Positions 3,477 to 46,669 of a DNA stretch of 64,000 bases are shown here, piece after piece. Below the pieces are notes generated by a model that was not told the origin of the DNA, did not search any database, and saw only the letters and a list, made by a program, of their open reading frames with translations. Every line of letters starts with the position of its first letter. The first letter of the stretch is position 1. Where the stretch lies: the NCBI GenBank assembly GCA_003216415.1, contig QCIY01000003.1, positions 62,001-126,000 of the forward strand, written 5' to 3'. Made by a program: the position numbers and the translations under genes. Source of the stretch: Prochlorococcus sp. AG-402-O16. GTDB taxonomy: Bacteria > Cyanobacteriota > Cyanobacteriia > PCC-6307 > Cyanobiaceae.

Positions 3477-3842
3477 CTAACCTAAATATGTCTTCTTAAG
3501 ATTTTGTACCTTATCTAAAACAGCTTCACGATTTTCACTAGTACGAAGATTTTGCCAGCTCCATTGACCGACAACAATAACACCTAGTAGTTCTAGTAAA
3601 CCAGGGAGAATTGGGAAAAAGTTTATCGTGTCAATGACAACTTTAATTATTATCTGAGCTATTACGACAACAGCAATTATGCCTGCCGCCTTGCCGTACT
3701 TACCCATTTGAGTCCAATCAACGTTACCGAGGGTTTCGTTGACTTTCCCCATAACATCAGAGTACTTCTCTGAAAAACTTTTGGTTTCTGAGCTTGTATC
3801 GGTGCCGGAGTCTTGGTTTGACTCTGGAGTGTTATCACTCAT
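3477..3842 (-). CDS. CAAD/CURT1-like thylakoid membrane protein
   Basis: A small 121-residue protein with an acidic, Ser/Thr-rich N-terminus (1-25) and an amphipathic stretch containing KVNETLGNVDWTQM. Two hydrophobic segments follow (about 51-70 and 76-93), then a basic helical tail. This is the layout of the CAAD domain, found fused to some cyanobacterial aminoacyl-tRNA synthetases and alone in CURT1-type proteins that shape thylakoid membranes. The stand-alone form here suggests the latter role. The NVDW and VGQWSWQNLRTSENRE stretches are what I recognise. Function in membrane curvature is inferred from plant and Synechocystis relatives. Confidence 0.75.
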   Translation of the reverse strand: MSDNTPESNQDSGTDTSSETKSFSEKYSDVMGKVNETLGNVDWTQMGKYGKAAGIIAVVVIAQIIIKVVIDTINFFPILPGLLELLGVIVVGQWSWQNLRTSENREAVLDKVQNLKKTYLG

Positions 3843-4136
3843 GAATTCAGTAAACTTAATATATGAACCAGACAGTATCGGAAAAAACGTCTGTTGACTA
3901 CCTTTTTGTTGTGCAAAATTCCGAACCGAAACATTTTGTATTTTTTTAGATGCGTTGGTATGCAGGGTTTCTGAAGATATTTAAACTTAAAATTGATTTA
4001 TAAAAACTTCACATTATCGTCTAGTTCTAACAAAAACATTAATAAATCACAGTAATAAGAAAAATTTAAAAGGCTAAAATTTTTATTTTAATTATTATGT
4101 TTTCATAGTTTATCTCGCAAACATTAAGGGATCGAA
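3843..4136. other. 294-base divergent intergenic region
   Basis: This is the longest stretch without a recognised gene. It separates the divergently transcribed CAAD gene and the MoeB-like gene and so should hold both promoters. The half next to the CAAD gene (about 3870-3980) is less AT-rich than the rest. I see no open frame of credible length, no tRNA-like fold and no strong hairpin. An AAGGG at 4126-4130 is a good ribosome site for the downstream gene. Confidence 0.6.
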
Positions 4137-5282
4137 ATGTCCAAAGATATCAAATTTAATTTCTTAAACTCTGATGAAGAAGAAAGATATCAAAAACATT
4201 TCACCCTCAAAGAAATAGGTTATAAAGGTCAACTGTATCTAAAAAACAGTTCAGTATTATGTATCGGAGCAGGAGGGCTTGGATCTTCCGTTTTGCTTTA
4301 TCTAGCCGCAACAGGAATTGGGAAAATTGGAATAGTTGATAACGATCGAGTTGAAAAGTCTAATCTCCAGAGACAGATAATTCATGAAACAAACACTATT
4401 GGTAATCTTAAAATTAATTCTGCCAGGGAAAGAATTAAAAAAATTAATCCTAATTGTGAAATATTAACCTTTTCAGAGAGAATGAATCCTAAAAATGCTC
4501 TTGCATTAATAAAGGAGTTTGATGTTATTTGTGATTGCTCGGATAACTTTGGCACAAGATATTTAATAAATGATTCATGCCTGATATTAAATAAACCCCT
4601 AGTCTTTGGGAGTGTACAAGGCTTTGAAGGGCAAGTGAGTGTTTTCAATTTATATAAAAATAGTCCTAATTTAAGAGACTTACTTCCAGAATCACCTTCA
4701 AAAAATGCTGCCCCTAGTTGTGCAGAATATGGGGTTGTGGGCGTTTCAACAGGTTTTATAGGAATTCTTCAGGTTAATGAAATTATCAAAATCATTTTGA
4801 AAAAAGGTGAAATTTTAGATGGGAAGATTTTAATTTTTGATCTATTGAATATGAATATGAAAAAATTACATCTAAAAAGTGATCAGTTAAATAAACGAAT
4901 AAAAAATCTGTCTCAGTTTGAGAGTTTTTATAATAGTGATGAATATTGTGAGAAAAACGATGAAATTTACAGTATTAATGCAAAAGAATTTAATAGCTTG
5001 TACAAAGCAAAACCCAACAAAATTCTTTTAATTGATGTTAGAGAAAATGAAGAATTTTCTACTTCTGCAATAGAGGGATCTATATCAATTCCCTTAAGTC
5101 ATTTGAACCAAGAATCAGACTTAAAATTTATTCAAAAAGAAAGTTTAAATAAAGAGGTTTTCACTATATGTAAATCAGGGAAACGTTCTGAAAAAGCGTC
5201 AAGAATCTTGTCTAAATTCAAAATTCAGTCAAGATCTGTTCAGGGCGGCATTGAAAAGGTAAAAAAAATATTATGCAATTGA
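4137..5282 (+). CDS. MoeB/ThiF-type adenylyltransferase with rhodanese domain
   Basis: A 381-residue E1-like enzyme fused to a rhodanese domain, the MoeZ architecture. These enzymes adenylate the C-terminus of a ubiquitin-like sulfur carrier (MoaD, ThiS or similar) and pass sulfur to it. Residues 44-51 are the nucleotide motif GAGGLGSS, 68-80 read DNDRVEKSNLQRQ, and 133-137 are DCSDN. Cys195 in PSCAEYGVVG is the likely E1 cysteine. The rhodanese domain (about 275-380) has active-site Cys345 in CKSGKRS. The two CxxC pairs that bind zinc in E. coli MoeB are absent: the first site reads NLRDLLPE and no later CxxC exists. Whether it serves thiamine, molybdopterin or tRNA thiolation is not decidable here. 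Confidence 0.85.
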   Translation: MSKDIKFNFLNSDEEERYQKHFTLKEIGYKGQLYLKNSSVLCIGAGGLGSSVLLYLAATGIGKIGIVDNDRVEKSNLQRQIIHETNTIGNLKINSARERIKKINPNCEILTFSERMNPKNALALIKEFDVICDCSDNFGTRYLINDSCLILNKPLVFGSVQGFEGQVSVFNLYKNSPNLRDLLPESPSKNAAPSCAEYGVVGVSTGFIGILQVNEIIKIILKKGEILDGKILIFDLLNMNMKKLHLKSDQLNKRIKNLSQFESFYNSDEYCEKNDEIYSINAKEFNSLYKAKPNKILLIDVRENEEFSTSAIEGSISIPLSHLNQESDLKFIQKESLNKEVFTICKSGKRSEKASRILSKFKIQSRSVQGGIEKVKKILCN

Positions 5283-40946: not shown

Positions 40947-41696
40947 ATGACAAATAAGTTAAACGGAAAAAGGATTGATCAAATAATTACTTTTTTAAAG
41001 TGTTTAAACATCAAATCAAAAAGATTCTCTGAAATAATTAGAACAAAAAATATTTCAACAATTCAGAATTTTAATCAAGCATTAATCCATTCCTCAGATG
41101 ACAACATAATAAATTACGAAAAATTAGAATTTTTTGGAGATGCAGTACTCAGATTAGCTGCATCGAATTTTATTGAAAAAAAATATCCTCAAATGAGCGT
41201 AGGCGAGAGATCAGAGCTAAGAGCACAAATTGTAAGTGATGAATGGCTAACTAAATTAGGCAAAACAATTGAGATAGAAAAATTAATAATTAAAGGGCCT
41301 AAAGCTATTGGTGATGAAAATTCAAAAAACACAATTATTGGGGAATCCACAGAGGCTTTAATTGGTGCTCTTTATAAGTGCTTTAACTCAATCCAGGAAG
41401 TAAATATATGGCTAGATGATATTTGGGAGAATGATTCAGAAATGTTTTTAAAAGCCCCATATAAATTTAAATCTAAGACAGTATTACAAGAATGGTGTCA
41501 AAGTAAAGGCTTGGATTTGCCAACTTATGAAATAATTGAAGTCTCTAAAATAAATGGAGATCCAAAAAGATTTTCTTGCGATATATTCATTGAAGGATTA
41601 AAAGAATCATCCGCTTTTGGCAAATCCCATAAACAAGCAGAGACTAATGCAGCTAGAGTTCTTATAGAAAAGTTTATGTCTATAGGTAAGATTTAA
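40947..41696 (+). CDS. rnc: ribonuclease III
   Basis: A double-strand RNA endonuclease for rRNA and mRNA processing. The 249-residue protein has the signature EKLEFFGDAVLRLAA, the second acidic motif GESTEALIGALYKC, and a C-terminal dsRNA-binding domain from about 170 (KTVLQEWCQSKGLDLPTYE, ending NAARVLIEKF). The start is 26 bases after rnpB, so it is probably transcribed through or just after it, an apt pairing of two RNA-processing genes. Confidence 0.93.
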   Translation: MTNKLNGKRIDQIITFLKCLNIKSKRFSEIIRTKNISTIQNFNQALIHSSDDNIINYEKLEFFGDAVLRLAASNFIEKKYPQMSVGERSELRAQIVSDEWLTKLGKTIEIEKLIIKGPKAIGDENSKNTIIGESTEALIGALYKCFNSIQEVNIWLDDIWENDSEMFLKAPYKFKSKTVLQEWCQSKGLDLPTYEIIEVSKINGDPKRFSCDIFIEGLKESSAFGKSHKQAETNAARVLIEKFMSIGKI

Positions 41697-41699
41697 TTT

Positions 41700-41885
41700 T
41701 TAAACTATTTCTAAATTAGTGAGCTGGAAAGTTATGAGTTTATCCCAATTACCTCCTTCAAAAAGAACAGCTGCTCGTTTTTTTGTCACTCTCTGTACAA
41801 ACCCTTTGTATCCTCTGTATATAGAATTTCTATCTTTTACAACTACAAAAGAACCAGGGAGTATAGGTTTAGTCGATGATTCCAT
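41700..41885 (-). CDS. ndhS: NAD(P)H dehydrogenase subunit S
   Basis: A 61-residue SH3-like protein matching NdhS, the ferredoxin-binding subunit of the photosynthetic NDH-1 complex. The stretches [27 protein letters not shown] and [18 protein letters not shown] are very close to what I know of the cyanobacterial family, and the size fits. It lies between rnc and rimM on the opposite strand; its promoter must overlap the start of rimM (24-base gap). Confidence 0.88.
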
Positions 41886-41909
41886 AAAATACCTTACTCA
41901 ATACAATAT

Positions 41910-42449
41910 ATGATAAATAAAAATGAATGGTTGATTGTTGGATTAATAACATCATGTCATGGAATTAACGGCCAAGTAAAGGTTAAATCTTTAAGTGATT
42001 TTGAAGAAAGATTTTTAAAGCCTGGAATAAGATGGTTACAAAAAGATAATGAAGCCCCTTCAAAAATAGAACTTACATCTGGCTACAAACAGCCTGGGAA
42101 AGAAACCTTCGTCATTAAGCTCCAAGGAATAAATACTAGAAATCAAGCAGAAGAACTTAAAAAAAATAAGATTCTTGTAAAAACAAATAGTCTTCCAAAA
42201 TTAAAAAAAGAAGAATTTCACTTGTTGGAACTTGTAAATTTGCAAGTCAAGATTTTAGAAAATGATGAATTAAAAATAATTGGAAAAGTTCTTGACTTGG
42301 ATAATGAAAAGAATAATTTACTAATTATTGAACTACTTAAAAATCAAAAAAAAGTTCTAATACCCTTTGTTAAAGAAATAGTGCCAGTAGTAGATATAAA
42401 AAATAATTTTCTTATCATAAAGCCCCCAAAAGGACTTCTAGAACTATAA
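41910..42449 (+). CDS. rimM: 16S rRNA processing protein RimM
   Basis: A 179-residue ribosome-maturation factor that binds S19 and helps assemble the 30S head. The N-terminal domain begins [19 protein letters not shown], and a PRC-barrel-like C-terminal domain follows ([15 protein letters not shown] and [19 protein letters not shown]). The usual partner genes trmD, rpsP and rplS are not adjacent. It is followed by the restriction-modification cassette. Confidence 0.93.
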
Positions 42450-42533
42450 ATATCCGAATAAAAAATTAAAATTTTCTATAAAGTTAAATTACCAAGACAA
42501 ATAAAAAGTAACTTTTATATGTTGTTTTTTTAT

Positions 42534-42561
42534 TTGACGTTATATTGAAATCATTTAATTT
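42534..42561 (+). promoter_or_regulatory. candidate promoter for the methyltransferase gene
   Basis: TTGACG at 42534-42539 and TAATTT at 42556-42561 are separated by 16 bases and lie about 27 bases before the methyltransferase start, matching a sigma-70 promoter layout. Prochlorococcus promoters often lack a -35 box, so this one being recognisable is slightly unusual. It would give the cassette its own transcription apart from rimM. AT-rich sequence makes chance matches common. Confidence 0.35.
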
Positions 42562-42587
42562 CTTATCTAAGGTCGTAGCAAATAATT

Positions 42588-43796
42588 ATGAAAAAATCGT
42601 CAGAAAAACAACCTTCAGTCGTTGGATTATTTTCTGGATGCGGTGGATTAGATTTAGGTTTTAAGCGTGCTGGTTTTGATATCCTATGGGCAAATGATTT
42701 TAATGCTGATTCCGTAAAGACTTATGCGAGAAATATTGGTGATCATATAGTTCTAGGAGACATTACTAAAATACCAAGTAAGGAAATACCATCAAACTTT
42801 GACGTACTTTTAGGCGGGTTTCCTTGTCAGGGTTTTTCTGTCGCAAATACTAAGAGAAGCATGAAAGATGAGAGAAATTATTTATATCTAGAAATGTTGA
42901 GAATTCTCAAGGATAAAAAACCAAAGTTTTTTGTTGCGGAGAATGTAAAAGGTCTTCTTTCATTAGAAAAAGGAAACGTCATTGAGATGATTTTGAAGGA
43001 TTTTGAAAATATAGGCTACAAAGTTGACTACAGACTTTTGATGGCGAGTGATTATGGTATTCCCCAACACAGAGAAAGGGTATTTATTATTGGCAACAGA
43101 ATTGGTAAAGAAAATCCCTTTCCTAAATATAGTCATGGCCTTAAGAATGACTTATTTAACCCCATATTGGAACCTTACATATCAACAAAAGAAGTACTTG
43201 AACACTTAGCTAATGTAAGAACAAGGGACAAACCTTTTAAGCTAGGAAAAAAAACTATCTATAATCATGTCGCCAGAACCAATGTAAGCGATAAGTTTTG
43301 GGGAAGAAAACATAAAGTAAATCAATTTGATATTTGTGATTACCTAAAAAAGTGGAGAAAAGATAGTGGCTGGTCAACTAAAAAAATAGATGAATATTTT
43401 GGTTATGCTCATACAGCAGGTCATTGGTTTAGAAAAGATAATAATTCTGGTTGCATTCCTAATCCTGATGATTGGAAGGTTTTAAAAAAATTATTAAAAT
43501 TCGATGATAAATATGATAAACAAGTTACTGAACTAGAACAAAAAACAATAGTATTTGAACAATCATTGCGCATTAATAATTGGGAAGAACCAAGTGATAC
43601 AATTACTGCCACTGGGCCAGAAATTCACCCCAATAGAAAAAGAAGAATGAGTGTAAGAGAATGTGCAATCCTTCAAACCTTTCCGGATGATTTCGTTTTT
43701 GAGGGTGCCATAGGTAGTATGTATAAGCAAATAGGAAATGCAGTCCCTGTAGATTTGGCATACAAAATTGGATTTGCTATAAAACAACATCTATAA
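42588..43796 (+). CDS. C5-cytosine DNA methyltransferase
   Basis: A 402-residue enzyme that transfers a methyl group from SAM to cytosine C5 in DNA. All key motifs are intact: I, LFSGCGGLDLGF (14-25); IV, GGFPCQGFS with catalytic Cys80; VI, ENV (118-120); VIII, QHRERVFIIG (160-169); IX, RMSVRECAILQTFPDDF (353-369); and X, GSMYKQIGNAVPV (376-388). The target-recognition region is about 185-350 and includes GHWFRKDNNSGCIPNPDDW. The recognition sequence cannot be read from this. The spacing to the next gene (11 bases) marks a type II modification gene. Confidence 0.95.
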   Translation: MKKSSEKQPSVVGLFSGCGGLDLGFKRAGFDILWANDFNADSVKTYARNIGDHIVLGDITKIPSKEIPSNFDVLLGGFPCQGFSVANTKRSMKDERNYLYLEMLRILKDKKPKFFVAENVKGLLSLEKGNVIEMILKDFENIGYKVDYRLLMASDYGIPQHRERVFIIGNRIGKENPFPKYSHGLKNDLFNPILEPYISTKEVLEHLANVRTRDKPFKLGKKTIYNHVARTNVSDKFWGRKHKVNQFDICDYLKKWRKDSGWSTKKIDEYFGYAHTAGHWFRKDNNSGCIPNPDDWKVLKKLLKFDDKYDKQVTELEQKTIVFEQSLRINNWEEPSDTITATGPEIHPNRKRRMSVRECAILQTFPDDFVFEGAIGSMYKQIGNAVPVDLAYKIGFAIKQHL

Positions 43797-43807
43797 AAAA
43801 TACTCAA

Positions 43808-44611
43808 ATGGACCTCAAAAAAATAGAAGAACTAGAACTTAAGTATTTAAATAAATATTTTTCGTTTTTAAAGTTCAGTTTAGAAGAAATTCTAGTAGGT
43901 CTTAAAACTCGAGATAAAATTATTGATGACTGGATAGGTCTTTATGGCACAAATATTAGTGACTATTCAACTGGTGCAGAAAGAGTTATTTATTCTCTTT
44001 TGAATGGAAAAGGAATTGGAACTCCTAACTCAGCACCTGTTGGCAGCGACCTGTTTTTTGAAGTTGATGATGCATTCATTCACATTGATCTTAAAACTGT
44101 AGGGGCAACCCTATCACCCATTAAACAAGATAAAGCAAATAATATAGTAGGAAAGTCAAATAATATAGGAGATTTTGCAGATAAAATTTTTATTGGTACT
44201 AATCAAAATTCTTACAGTTCAAAAATCTTGATTTATGAGGGTAAGCCAAAGCAATTTTCAAGAAATTACAAAGCTCATCTTCCCCCAATTTATAACAGAA
44301 AAGACAAAAACAAGGCGAAACCTTGTTTAACTTATTTTATAACTATTCTTTATGACAAAGATACTCGAGAAACACTTGTTATCAATCTTCTTTGTATGCC
44401 AAACGGTGAACTAAACAAGATTTATGAACATAAGCCTATTAGTGCAGGGAAAAATCCAGACAAAACAAGATTTAACTTTAAAAGAACCCCAGACTTTGAA
44501 TTATTAAATAAGGAAAAAAGAGTAAAGATTGTATTTTTTAAAGAAAATATGGACAAAAAATATCTGAAGAGATTAAAGTTTCAAGATAATTTATTTAAAA
44601 GTCAAAAATAA
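43808..44611 (+). CDS. putative type II restriction endonuclease
   Basis: A 267-residue protein without a family I can name. Asp81 and the Asp94-x-Lys96 in VGSDLFFEVDDAFIHIDLKT form a PD-(D/E)XK-like nuclease centre, and Glu57 in a preceding helix (GAERVIYSLL) could be the extra acidic residue. The remainder is mixed strands and lysine-rich loops, as expected for DNA contacts. It starts 11 bases after the C5 methyltransferase, the classic restriction partner position. Activity and site are unproven; the inference rests on context plus the motif. Confidence 0.7.
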   Translation: MDLKKIEELELKYLNKYFSFLKFSLEEILVGLKTRDKIIDDWIGLYGTNISDYSTGAERVIYSLLNGKGIGTPNSAPVGSDLFFEVDDAFIHIDLKTVGATLSPIKQDKANNIVGKSNNIGDFADKIFIGTNQNSYSSKILIYEGKPKQFSRNYKAHLPPIYNRKDKNKAKPCLTYFITILYDKDTRETLVINLLCMPNGELNKIYEHKPISAGKNPDKTRFNFKRTPDFELLNKEKRVKIVFFKENMDKKYLKRLKFQDNLFKSQK

Positions 44612-44646
44612 TTTTAATTATTTAAATATTAACTTTAATAGCCTTA

Positions 44647-44670
44647 TTCTCTTTAAGAGAAAAAATTTTT
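44647..44670 (+). terminator. weak terminator candidate after the cassette
   Basis: TTCTC (44647-44651) and GAGAA (44657-44661) form a 5-base-pair stem around a TTTAA loop, followed by A and T runs ending TTTTT at 44666-44670. The stem is short and A-T rich, so strength is doubtful, but it lies between the convergent endonuclease and glmS genes where a terminator is expected. Confidence 0.3.
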
Positions 44671-44693
44671 AAATGATTTGATTTATAGGCCAA

Positions 44694-46589
44694 CTACTCT
44701 ACGGTTACACTTTTAGCTAAATTTCTTGGTTGATCCACGTCAAGTCCTCTATGAGCTGCGATATGGTAACTCAATAACTGCAAAGGGACTATGTTCAATA
44801 AAGGTGAAATCCATTCATTGGAGGAAGGGATTTTCATTAAATAATCAAAGATTTCAGTACCATTACATTCAGGAGCTATCCCAATCAAGTATGAATCTCT
44901 AGCTTTTGCTTCTTGTGCATTACTAATAACTTTATCAAAAACTTCACCAGGAGAAGCTATAGAAATTACAGGTACTTTTTTATCTAACAAAGCTATTGGA
45001 CCATGTTTCATTTCACCAGCTGGATATCCTGCGGCATGAATATAACTTATTTCCTTCAGTTTTAATGCTCCTTCAAGAGCAATAGGATAATTTATGCCTC
45101 TCCCTAAAAATATAACATCTTTAATATTAAAAAAGTCATGAGCTAACTTTTCTGATGATTGATCATGTTTTTCTAGAAGATCATCTAATAATGGAGGAAG
45201 TTTTATAAGTTCTTTTATTAATTTTTCTATTTCATCAGGACTTTGACTACCTTTAATCTGGGCAAAGTATATTGCTAATCCATAAAAAGAAAGTAATTGT
45301 GCAAAAAAAGTTTTTGTTGCAGCAACTCCAACTTCTATCCCTGCACAAATATCGATTATATTTGGAACCTGCCTTCCTATAGAGCTCTCTCTTCTATTTG
45401 TTATTGCAATAAGATTGGGTCTAAATTTTTTATCTTTAATTACGGACCTTCGTTTGATTTCCATATCAATAGCTGCAATTGTATCAGCAGTTTCTCCAGA
45501 TTGAGAAACTCCAATAGTTAATGTATTTGGTAATAGTGGAGGGGGAGAATAACGAAATTCGCTAGCATAAAAAACATTTGTAGGAATACCTGAGAATTGC
45601 TCTAATAAAAAGCTACCTACCATTGCAGCGTGTTTACTTGTTCCACAAGCAATAATTTCAATTCGCTCGATTGACTCAAAAAATTTTGTATCAAAAGGAT
45701 ACTTTATTTGATATTGACCATTTTCTGAATTTTCTATTAAATAATTTTCTAACCAATTTTTTGCAGTTTCCGGCTGATCATATATCTCTTTTAGCATGAA
45801 GTGTTTGAAGTTCATCTTATCAATTATTTGCTCTGAGACTTTTAAGGAAACAGGATTTCGATATTGTCTCTCGTTATTTGAGTCATATATTTCTATTCCA
45901 AGAGGAGTTAATAAAGCTATTTCCTCATCCTCCATAGGCAGAATAATGTTTGTAAAGTTTGCAATAGCTGGAGTATCACTTGCACAAATAAATTCTCCTT
46001 CACCCAAACCAATAATCAAAGGTGCTTGTTTTCTTGCAACTACAAGCGAGGTTGGGGCACCAGCCCACAAAACTGCCAAGGCATAAGATCCTTCCAAATC
46101 AGATATTACATTTCTAACAGCTACTAATAATGTTGATCCGTTATTCTCAAGCTTTAGTTTACTTAATGTATTTAATTCTCTTTGAATTAAATGAGGAATT
46201 ACCTCAGTATCTGTATCAGAATTGAAAATTATGCCCTCATTCTCTAATTTATTTTTTAAGTCTTGAAAATTTTCAATAATTCCATTTTGAACAACTGCGA
46301 TTGCTCCTGAACTATCGGTATGAGGATGAGCATTTTTAACCTCAGGTTTCCCATGAGTAGCCCAACGAGTATGAGCTATACCAACGGTTCCAGGAATATT
46401 CTTTTCATTAAGATTAACTCTTAAATTTTTAAGTTTTCCCTCAGCTTTGTCACAAGTAATAGAATTTGTTTCAGGATTAATTACTGCAATACCTGCTGAA
46501 TCATATCCTCTATATTCAAGTTTTTCTAAACCATTCATCAACAATGGTAAAGCTTTTTTATAACCAGTTACAGCAACTATTCCACACAT
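44694..46589 (-). CDS. glmS: glucosamine-fructose-6-phosphate aminotransferase
   Basis: Makes glucosamine-6-phosphate from fructose-6-phosphate and glutamine, the entry to peptidoglycan and other amino-sugar synthesis. From the ATG at 46589 the protein starts MCGIVAVTGYK, where Cys after the removed Met is the glutaminase nucleophile. The open frame extends six codons further up (to 46607), but the cysteine must be N-terminal. Its 631 residues include the glutaminase block RGYDSAGIAV and two SIS sugar domains with GTSKHAAMVG and SQSGETADT. The C-terminus ends LAKSVTVE, as it should. Confidence 0.96.
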   Translation of the reverse strand: MCGIVAVTGYKKALPLLMNGLEKLEYRGYDSAGIAVINPETNSITCDKAEGKLKNLRVNLNEKNIPGTVGIAHTRWATHGKPEVKNAHPHTDSSGAIAVVQNGIIENFQDLKNKLENEGIIFNSDTDTEVIPHLIQRELNTLSKLKLENNGSTLLVAVRNVISDLEGSYALAVLWAGAPTSLVVARKQAPLIIGLGEGEFICASDTPAIANFTNIILPMEDEEIALLTPLGIEIYDSNNERQYRNPVSLKVSEQIIDKMNFKHFMLKEIYDQPETAKNWLENYLIENSENGQYQIKYPFDTKFFESIERIEIIACGTSKHAAMVGSFLLEQFSGIPTNVFYASEFRYSPPPLLPNTLTIGVSQSGETADTIAAIDMEIKRRSVIKDKKFRPNLIAITNRRESSIGRQVPNIIDICAGIEVGVAATKTFFAQLLSFYGLAIYFAQIKGSQSPDEIEKLIKELIKLPPLLDDLLEKHDQSSEKLAHDFFNIKDVIFLGRGINYPIALEGALKLKEISYIHAAGYPAGEMKHGPIALLDKKVPVISIASPGEVFDKVISNAQEAKARDSYLIGIAPECNGTEIFDYLMKIPSSNEWISPLLNIVPLQLLSYHIAAHRGLDVDQPRNLAKSVTVE

Positions 46590-46669
46590 ACAATCAATTT
46601 TTTTCAATTATATTGAAAAAAATTGAGTATTTATTAAAGTATGGACTCTCTTAAAACTGCACTATAAAT

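Follow-up and report, generated by a model that had tools for sequence, protein, structure and literature searches.

The window, by which we mean the whole 64,000-nt stretch of Prochlorococcus sp. AG-402-O16 DNA that was analysed, contains two adjoining forward-strand genes. The first encodes a 402-aa C5-cytosine DNA methyltransferase (ATG start; PF00145; positions 42588..43796) and the second a 267-aa protein (ATG start; 43808..44611), assigned from its predicted fold and a PF14562 match as a BglI/SfiI-fold restriction endonuclease. Re-reading the open reading frames confirms the arrangement given in an earlier note on this DNA: the genes lie 11 bases apart and are flanked by rimM on the 5′ side (41910-42449, + strand) and by the convergent glmS on the 3′ side (44694-46607, − strand). 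A 138-bp leader (42450..42587, + strand) leads from rimM to the methyltransferase, and leaders of equal length and similar sequence are present in genomes G265 and G089 (G-numbers denote Prochlorococcus genomes, with the window as G000; L-numbers denote loci or contigs elsewhere, cellular or viral; G000, G089, G228 and G265 carry the cassette). The 82-bp gap between the nuclease and the glmS stop (44612..44693) is where the exchanged stretch discussed below appears to end, as judged by comparing the gaps of the four carriers by eye. Base composition is indeed like that of the surroundings (GC 0.333 and 0.291 for methyltransferase and nuclease, 0.321 for the window). The candidate promoter of the cassette's own found no support: a scan of 42300-44800 for sigma-70-type promoters gave 9 sites against 12.2 ± 3.2 in shuffled sequence, and the same scan, which is blind to other promoter types, gave none in the leader at 42450-42587. 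Rfam families gave 0 matches in 41500-45000.

Residues 11-399 of the methyltransferase match PF00145 (Pfam, E 1.1e-85). The motifs that had been called intact are readable as FSGCGGLDLG, GGFPCQGFS (with Cys80), ENVKG, QHRERVFIIG, RRMSVRECAILQTFPDD and QIGNAVP, with key residues invariant in 36 aligned sequences; we take these to be the motifs numbered I, IV, VI, VIII, IX and X. Cys80 of the PCQ motif (codon 42825..42827, + strand), itself invariant in the 36 sequences, is presumably the catalytic cysteine of C5 methyltransferases. An AlphaFold2 model (pLDDT 86.3) has M.HaeIII (1dct) as its best PDB match (Z 33.7 over 290 residues, 2.7 Å), with DNMT1 chains tying within 1 Z, and conserved motifs, catalytic Cys and C5 fold are all found in this enzyme. 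It resembles M.HaeIII and other C5 methyltransferases in core fold and motifs, but its recognition region carries a module of about 90 residues marked by the sequence HTAGHWFR. A Cro/C1-type helix-turn-helix domain (HTH_26) is fused N-terminally to the methyltransferase in all four longer relatives tested (L120:3737-5311, L118:2718-4196, L056:6211-7857 and L044:4863-6455), where it is perhaps a built-in controller; Pfam finds no domain of this type in the window's methyltransferase.

The second protein reaches the Endonuc_BglI family (PF14562) with 26.7 bits against a curated cut-off of 25. Structure prediction, proposed in the earlier note as the check on a nuclease fold, returns one of the BglI/SfiI kind: a model from a 45-sequence alignment (pLDDT 87.2, pTM 0.87) matches BglI (Foldseek E 4.5e-9; VIA-align Z 18.9, 215 residues, 2.7 Å) and SfiI (Foldseek E 2.4e-7; VIA-align Z 18.7, 210 residues), after which the next structural match drops to Z 8.2 (VIA-align). 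Matches to SwaI, NaeI, HincII and EcoRV, with Z of about 6-8, were taken to reflect the common nuclease core. Among sequence searches, the Pfam BglI family is matched at E 0.01 by just 5 of 45 members of the nuclease family, and searches of PDB sequences with the nuclease and with alignments A1 and A2 gave zero matches, so that the tie to the BglI family rests mostly on the predicted fold; NCBIfam and PADLOC gave no match for the nuclease. The PD-(D/E)XK-like centre that had been read from the sequence holds up, as Asp94 and Lys96 do not vary among the 45 aligned sequences and Asp81 is conserved to at least 90%. Across 56 family nucleases, Glu58 (codon 43979..43981, + strand) and Asp81 are each kept in 55, and Asp94 and Lys96 in all 56 (Asp81 to Asp94-x-Lys96 spanning 44048..44095, + strand). 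Active-site residues are given as E87, D116, D142 and K144 for BglI and, as predictions, E55, D79, D100 and K102 for SfiI (PMC548270); residue order and modelled fold, rather than a superposition, suggest that Glu58, Asp81, Asp94 and Lys96 are their counterparts.

Relatives of the nuclease are spread over many bacterial and archaeal phyla. When 84,980 species genomes were scanned with a three-sequence alignment and exact peptide patterns, 52 were found, which is a lower bound, and among 72,556 plasmids two more turned up, one in Vagococcus lutrae and one in Picrophilus oshimae; when 60 relatives were searched with the single nuclease protein, the window's own copy was the only match. By manual count, a methyltransferase or a fragment of one adjoins the nuclease in 50 of these 54 loci (52 genomic, 2 plasmid), 42 times a C5 enzyme and 8 times an amino-methyltransferase with an SPPY motif (PF01555 confirmed in 3 of 3 tested). 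The four loci in which none was seen (L049, L057, L058 and L075) all lie near a contig end, and L058, from a mycoplasma, was read without what we take to be the mycoplasma code. Six of the C5 loci hold a methyltransferase that is split or cut by a contig end (L033, L034, L039, L046, L059 and L065); in Mycoplasmopsis felis (L039:2722-4756), methyltransferase and nuclease are both split under table 11 and whole under code 4. Three loci (L041, L055 and L056) have two nucleases and one methyltransferase detected by BLAST in the available stretch, and a fourth (L057) has two nucleases on a contig that ends before any methyltransferase; such loci would look like intermediates of a nuclease swap, or like two nucleases under a shared protector. 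The nearest cassette found outside the genus lies in a SAR86 single-cell genome (L025:3980-6024; methyltransferase 83%, nuclease 62% identical), with its two genes convergent.

Separate, adjoining methyltransferase and endonuclease genes, the latter assigned by predicted fold, make up a Type II layout, and the proposal of a restriction-modification cassette is backed by the predicted fold, the active site and the conservation of the partner across many phyla. The best reading, drawn from these models, is an intact-looking Type II system of the BglI/SfiI kind with a C5 partner. With the BglI system of Bacillus globigii it shares the nuclease fold, the Pfam family, the Glu-Asp-AspxLys order and an adjoining methyltransferase, but the nuclease is 20% identical to BglI over the structural alignment, and its partner is a PF00145 C5 enzyme, whereas M.BglI makes N4-methylcytosine in GCCN5GGC (PMC4882945). 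Partners of the amino type do exist, in the 8 of 54 related loci given above. The likeness to SfiI, a tetrameric Type IIF enzyme, is one of fold, at 16% identity. The sites of the two enzymes are given as GCCNNNN|NGGC for BglI and GGCCNNNN|NGGCC for SfiI (PMC4081073, PMC548270). In a comparison meant to reveal the recognition site by its avoidance, GCCNNNNNGGC occurs 25.5, 25.3, 24.0 and 33.3 times per Mb in the carriers versus 26.4-37.9 in 27 non-carriers. The density of GCCN5GGC is the lowest, by a slight margin, in three of the four carriers and average in the fourth (31 genomes; p 0.016, control pattern p 0.14), a difference confounded by kinship and rounded genome sizes.

Within Prochlorococcus, the cassette is present in 4 of 266 genomes (G000, G089, G228 and G265), on which searches with a nuclease profile and with the recognition part of the methyltransferase agree; completeness reaches 90% or more in only 87 of these genomes, one of them a carrier. 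A PF14562 search of the same genomes retrieved G265 only and missed the window's own nuclease, and was as an insensitive search not used for the carrier count. These numbers bear out the rarity of Type II systems in the genus, for which 0 to 1 restriction-modification systems per genome are described as typical (PMC8262939). A rimM search matched 113 of 131 genus genomes, and in the best 30 of the 113 loci glmS directly follows rimM 27 times, 21-34 bp apart (an empty site), and a methyltransferase occupies the interval three times (window, G265 and G089). The contig of G228 starts within the methyltransferase, and glmS lies directly 3′ of its nuclease. A recent acquisition, which the earlier note had thought possible, is doubtful although 27 of the 30 sites are empty: in the three full-length pairs, dS of the methyltransferase (0.33-0.45) is not lower than that of its neighbours (rnc 0.25-0.58, rimM 0.20-0.25, glmS 0.28-0.36), and the insertion is shared by four genomes, so that, as the sequences read, the insertion probably predates the split of the carriers or travels with the locus.

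The two genes differ in how far they have diverged. The methyltransferase is 94-96% identical (aa) among the four carriers (for G228 over its 315 available residues), and in a methyltransferase tree the four form one group (support 0.975). The nucleases come in three forms that fall into separate groups of the nuclease tree. G265 has the window's form (77-79% aa identity), and the two group with SAR86 L025 (support 0.989). Their dS (0.36, dN 0.13) equals that of glmS, which makes the G265 nuclease a fast-evolving ortholog, and an exchange between these two was dropped as an explanation on the same grounds. G228 has a 372-aa form with 32% local identity to the window's, which is closest to, and groups with, the second nuclease of L041 (47%; support 1.0). 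The 331-aa form of G089 has 26% local identity to the window's and is closest to that of viral contig L118 (36%, 212 aa) and to the second nucleases of L056 and L057 (about 30%), with which it groups (support 0.996). All four keep the D..DxK motif; Glu58 is kept in three and is Gln in G089. The gap sequences place the start of the exchanged stretch at or just 3′ of the methyltransferase stop and its end before glmS. Comparing carriers thus points to the nuclease as the later change at the locus, a change that was not visible in the window by itself. Exchange may at times have reached further: in every pair, dS of the 3′ part of the methyltransferase exceeds that of the adjacent part of glmS, most extremely in G228 (0.52-0.63 vs 0.23-0.27), so that in G228 recombination may have exchanged the entire cassette. 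In a 204-nt gap of G265, a remnant score was reached by 5 of 1000 shuffles against the start of the G228 nuclease, by 35 against the window's and by 889 against that of G089; a scar of a G228-type nuclease start is suggestive only. Among the open-access literature matches listed, we found no description of a rotation among three nuclease forms at one methyltransferase. A precedent is offered by Helicobacter pylori, where one study found the methyltransferase gene hpyIIIM in all of its 116 strains and where hrgA can stand in for the nuclease gene hpyIIIR; the Prochlorococcus slot differs in holding three members of one nuclease superfamily, whereas hrgA is not described as a nuclease in the available part of that source (PMC9705970).

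The module in the recognition region (residues 226-315, GYxHTAGHWFRKD; 43263..43532, + strand) is shared across methyltransferase classes. BLAST aligns the window's C5 enzyme with the amino-methyltransferase of Picrophilus mainly over residues 229-382, most closely near GYxxTAGHWFR. Among 554 open reading frames, a profile built from C5 copies of residues 226-315 matched 48 and no others: the 41 C5 frames that defined the module and seven of the eight amino-methyltransferases (E 3.6e-24 to 9.4e-13), the eighth (L070) being truncated by its contig end. Module and nuclease searches retrieve the same 2 records from the 72,556 plasmids, and 388 genomes sampled from the class hold no copy of the module besides the window's own. 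In C5 enzymes, the target-recognition domain sits at the position of the module, because of which we presume the module to be the target reader of the whole family, borne by two unrelated catalytic scaffolds. The tree nests the nuclease of L053, an amino-type system, among C5-paired nucleases, which suggests a change of catalytic class there, with nuclease and module retained. Recognition domains are described as moving within Type I and between Type III genes (PMC3983042); a module common to C5 and amino-methyltransferases was not found described among the open-access literature matches listed. If the shared module is indeed the target reader, specificity could be read across from C5 to amino-methyltransferases.

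Viruses carry this methyltransferase as well. Among 84 viral loci (80 of 112 viral methyltransferase relatives plus 4 from another search), the module is present in seven contigs: L019 (the same as L117), L020, L022 (a fragment), L118, L119, L120 and L121. The genes of L019 (Erf-like annealing protein, SSB, RusA-like resolvase, replication initiator and minor tail protein) mark it as a tailed phage. Its methyltransferase shares 86% identity with the window's and branches as the sister of the Prochlorococcus clade (support 0.952); no nuclease was found with it on the contig. Of the seven contigs, one (L118) has a relative of the nuclease close to the methyltransferase, and a profile search of six of the seven found one, in records that may be fragments. 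All six module-bearing cellular records (4 Prochlorococcus, 2 plasmids) have the nuclease, a difference from phage (Fisher p 0.005) that is weakened by four of the six being orthologs. Neither nuclease nor module gave a match in 50,697 phage records, nor did the nuclease as a single protein in IMG/VR; the A2 nuclease profile found one IMG/VR locus, L196. Nuclease-free phage methyltransferases would fit self-protection or counter-defence by the phage. The methyltransferase frame of L019 (4926-6215) opens with about 28 residues, ending in ITSP, that seem to resemble the beginning of an amino-methyltransferase joined in frame with the C5 enzyme; a second C5 methyltransferase frame lies one gene upstream, at 3728-4501.

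The usual view has a restriction gene and its modification gene evolving together, as partners matched to each other. A modification gene that is near-constant at one site in four Prochlorococcus genomes, next to non-orthologous nuclease genes, departs from this view. The locus is very probably a Type II restriction-modification system in which the methyltransferase stayed fixed and the nuclease was exchanged among distant members of its superfamily. As we picture it, the C5 methyltransferase would mark a short, probably interrupted, GC-containing palindrome in the cell's own DNA, and the nuclease, as a BglI/SfiI-type PD-D/ExK dimer or tetramer, would cut the same site in unmarked incoming DNA. 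The system may in this way act against phage, and the earlier note had held an effect on phage resistance possible. That both act at one site is inferred because the methyltransferase is shared; recombination would have swapped the nuclease gene between distant superfamily members, with one methyltransferase presumably protecting against all. An alternative without later exchange is that tandem nucleases were acquired once and that different lineages lost different copies. Tandem nucleases do occur (L041, L055, L056 and L057; 4 of 54 loci), and the G265 gap may hold a remnant of a G228-type start, yet differential loss requires three nucleases at one Prochlorococcus locus where no carrier has two, the tree sets the forms well apart, and at 11 nt in the window and 0 nt in G089 the gap 3′ of the methyltransferase is too short to hold a remnant at that end; we consider differential loss unlikely.

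Two further explanations concern the nuclease itself. The locus might serve chiefly for orphan or epigenetic methylation, or as a selfish addiction pair, with a decaying or neutral nuclease, as could be suggested by dN/dS, which is about 0.36 for the window/G265 nuclease and about 0.05 for the methyltransferase, and by the lack of an adjoining nuclease in most of the phage methyltransferase copies found; with the nuclease frame open and D..DxK present in all four carriers, and dN/dS still far under 1, this seems distinctly improbable. Some PD-D/ExK nucleases cut modified DNA, and a methylation-dependent enzyme (Type IV or IIM) would be a further candidate, but such an enzyme would turn on the very DNA that its partner marks, and the nearest folds, BglI and SfiI, are described as ordinary Type IIP/IIF enzymes (PMC4081073, PMC548270), so that we give this explanation hardly any credence. 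Returning to the fixed methyltransferase with an exchanged nuclease, a wider picture is possible, which we hold tentatively and at somewhat less than even chances: a modular immune locus in which one module on two scaffolds sets the target, distant BglI-fold nucleases rotate through the slot, the mark stays constant and phages copy the methyltransferase. A cell could then change its cutter, perhaps escaping phage inhibitors, with its epigenetic mark unchanged. If the nucleases share a target, the carriers would form a natural test of why a cell replaces its nuclease and keeps its mark, and the phage copy of the methyltransferase, in a restriction-poor genus, points to a testable exchange of defence and counter-defence.

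Other C5 methyltransferase-like genes are found in 9 of the 24 other genomes of the genus that were searched (G003, G005, G010, G012, G013, G020, G021, G023 and G024). They share 30-50% identity with the window's enzyme, chiefly in the conserved core, and further cytosine-modification genes thus exist in the genus.
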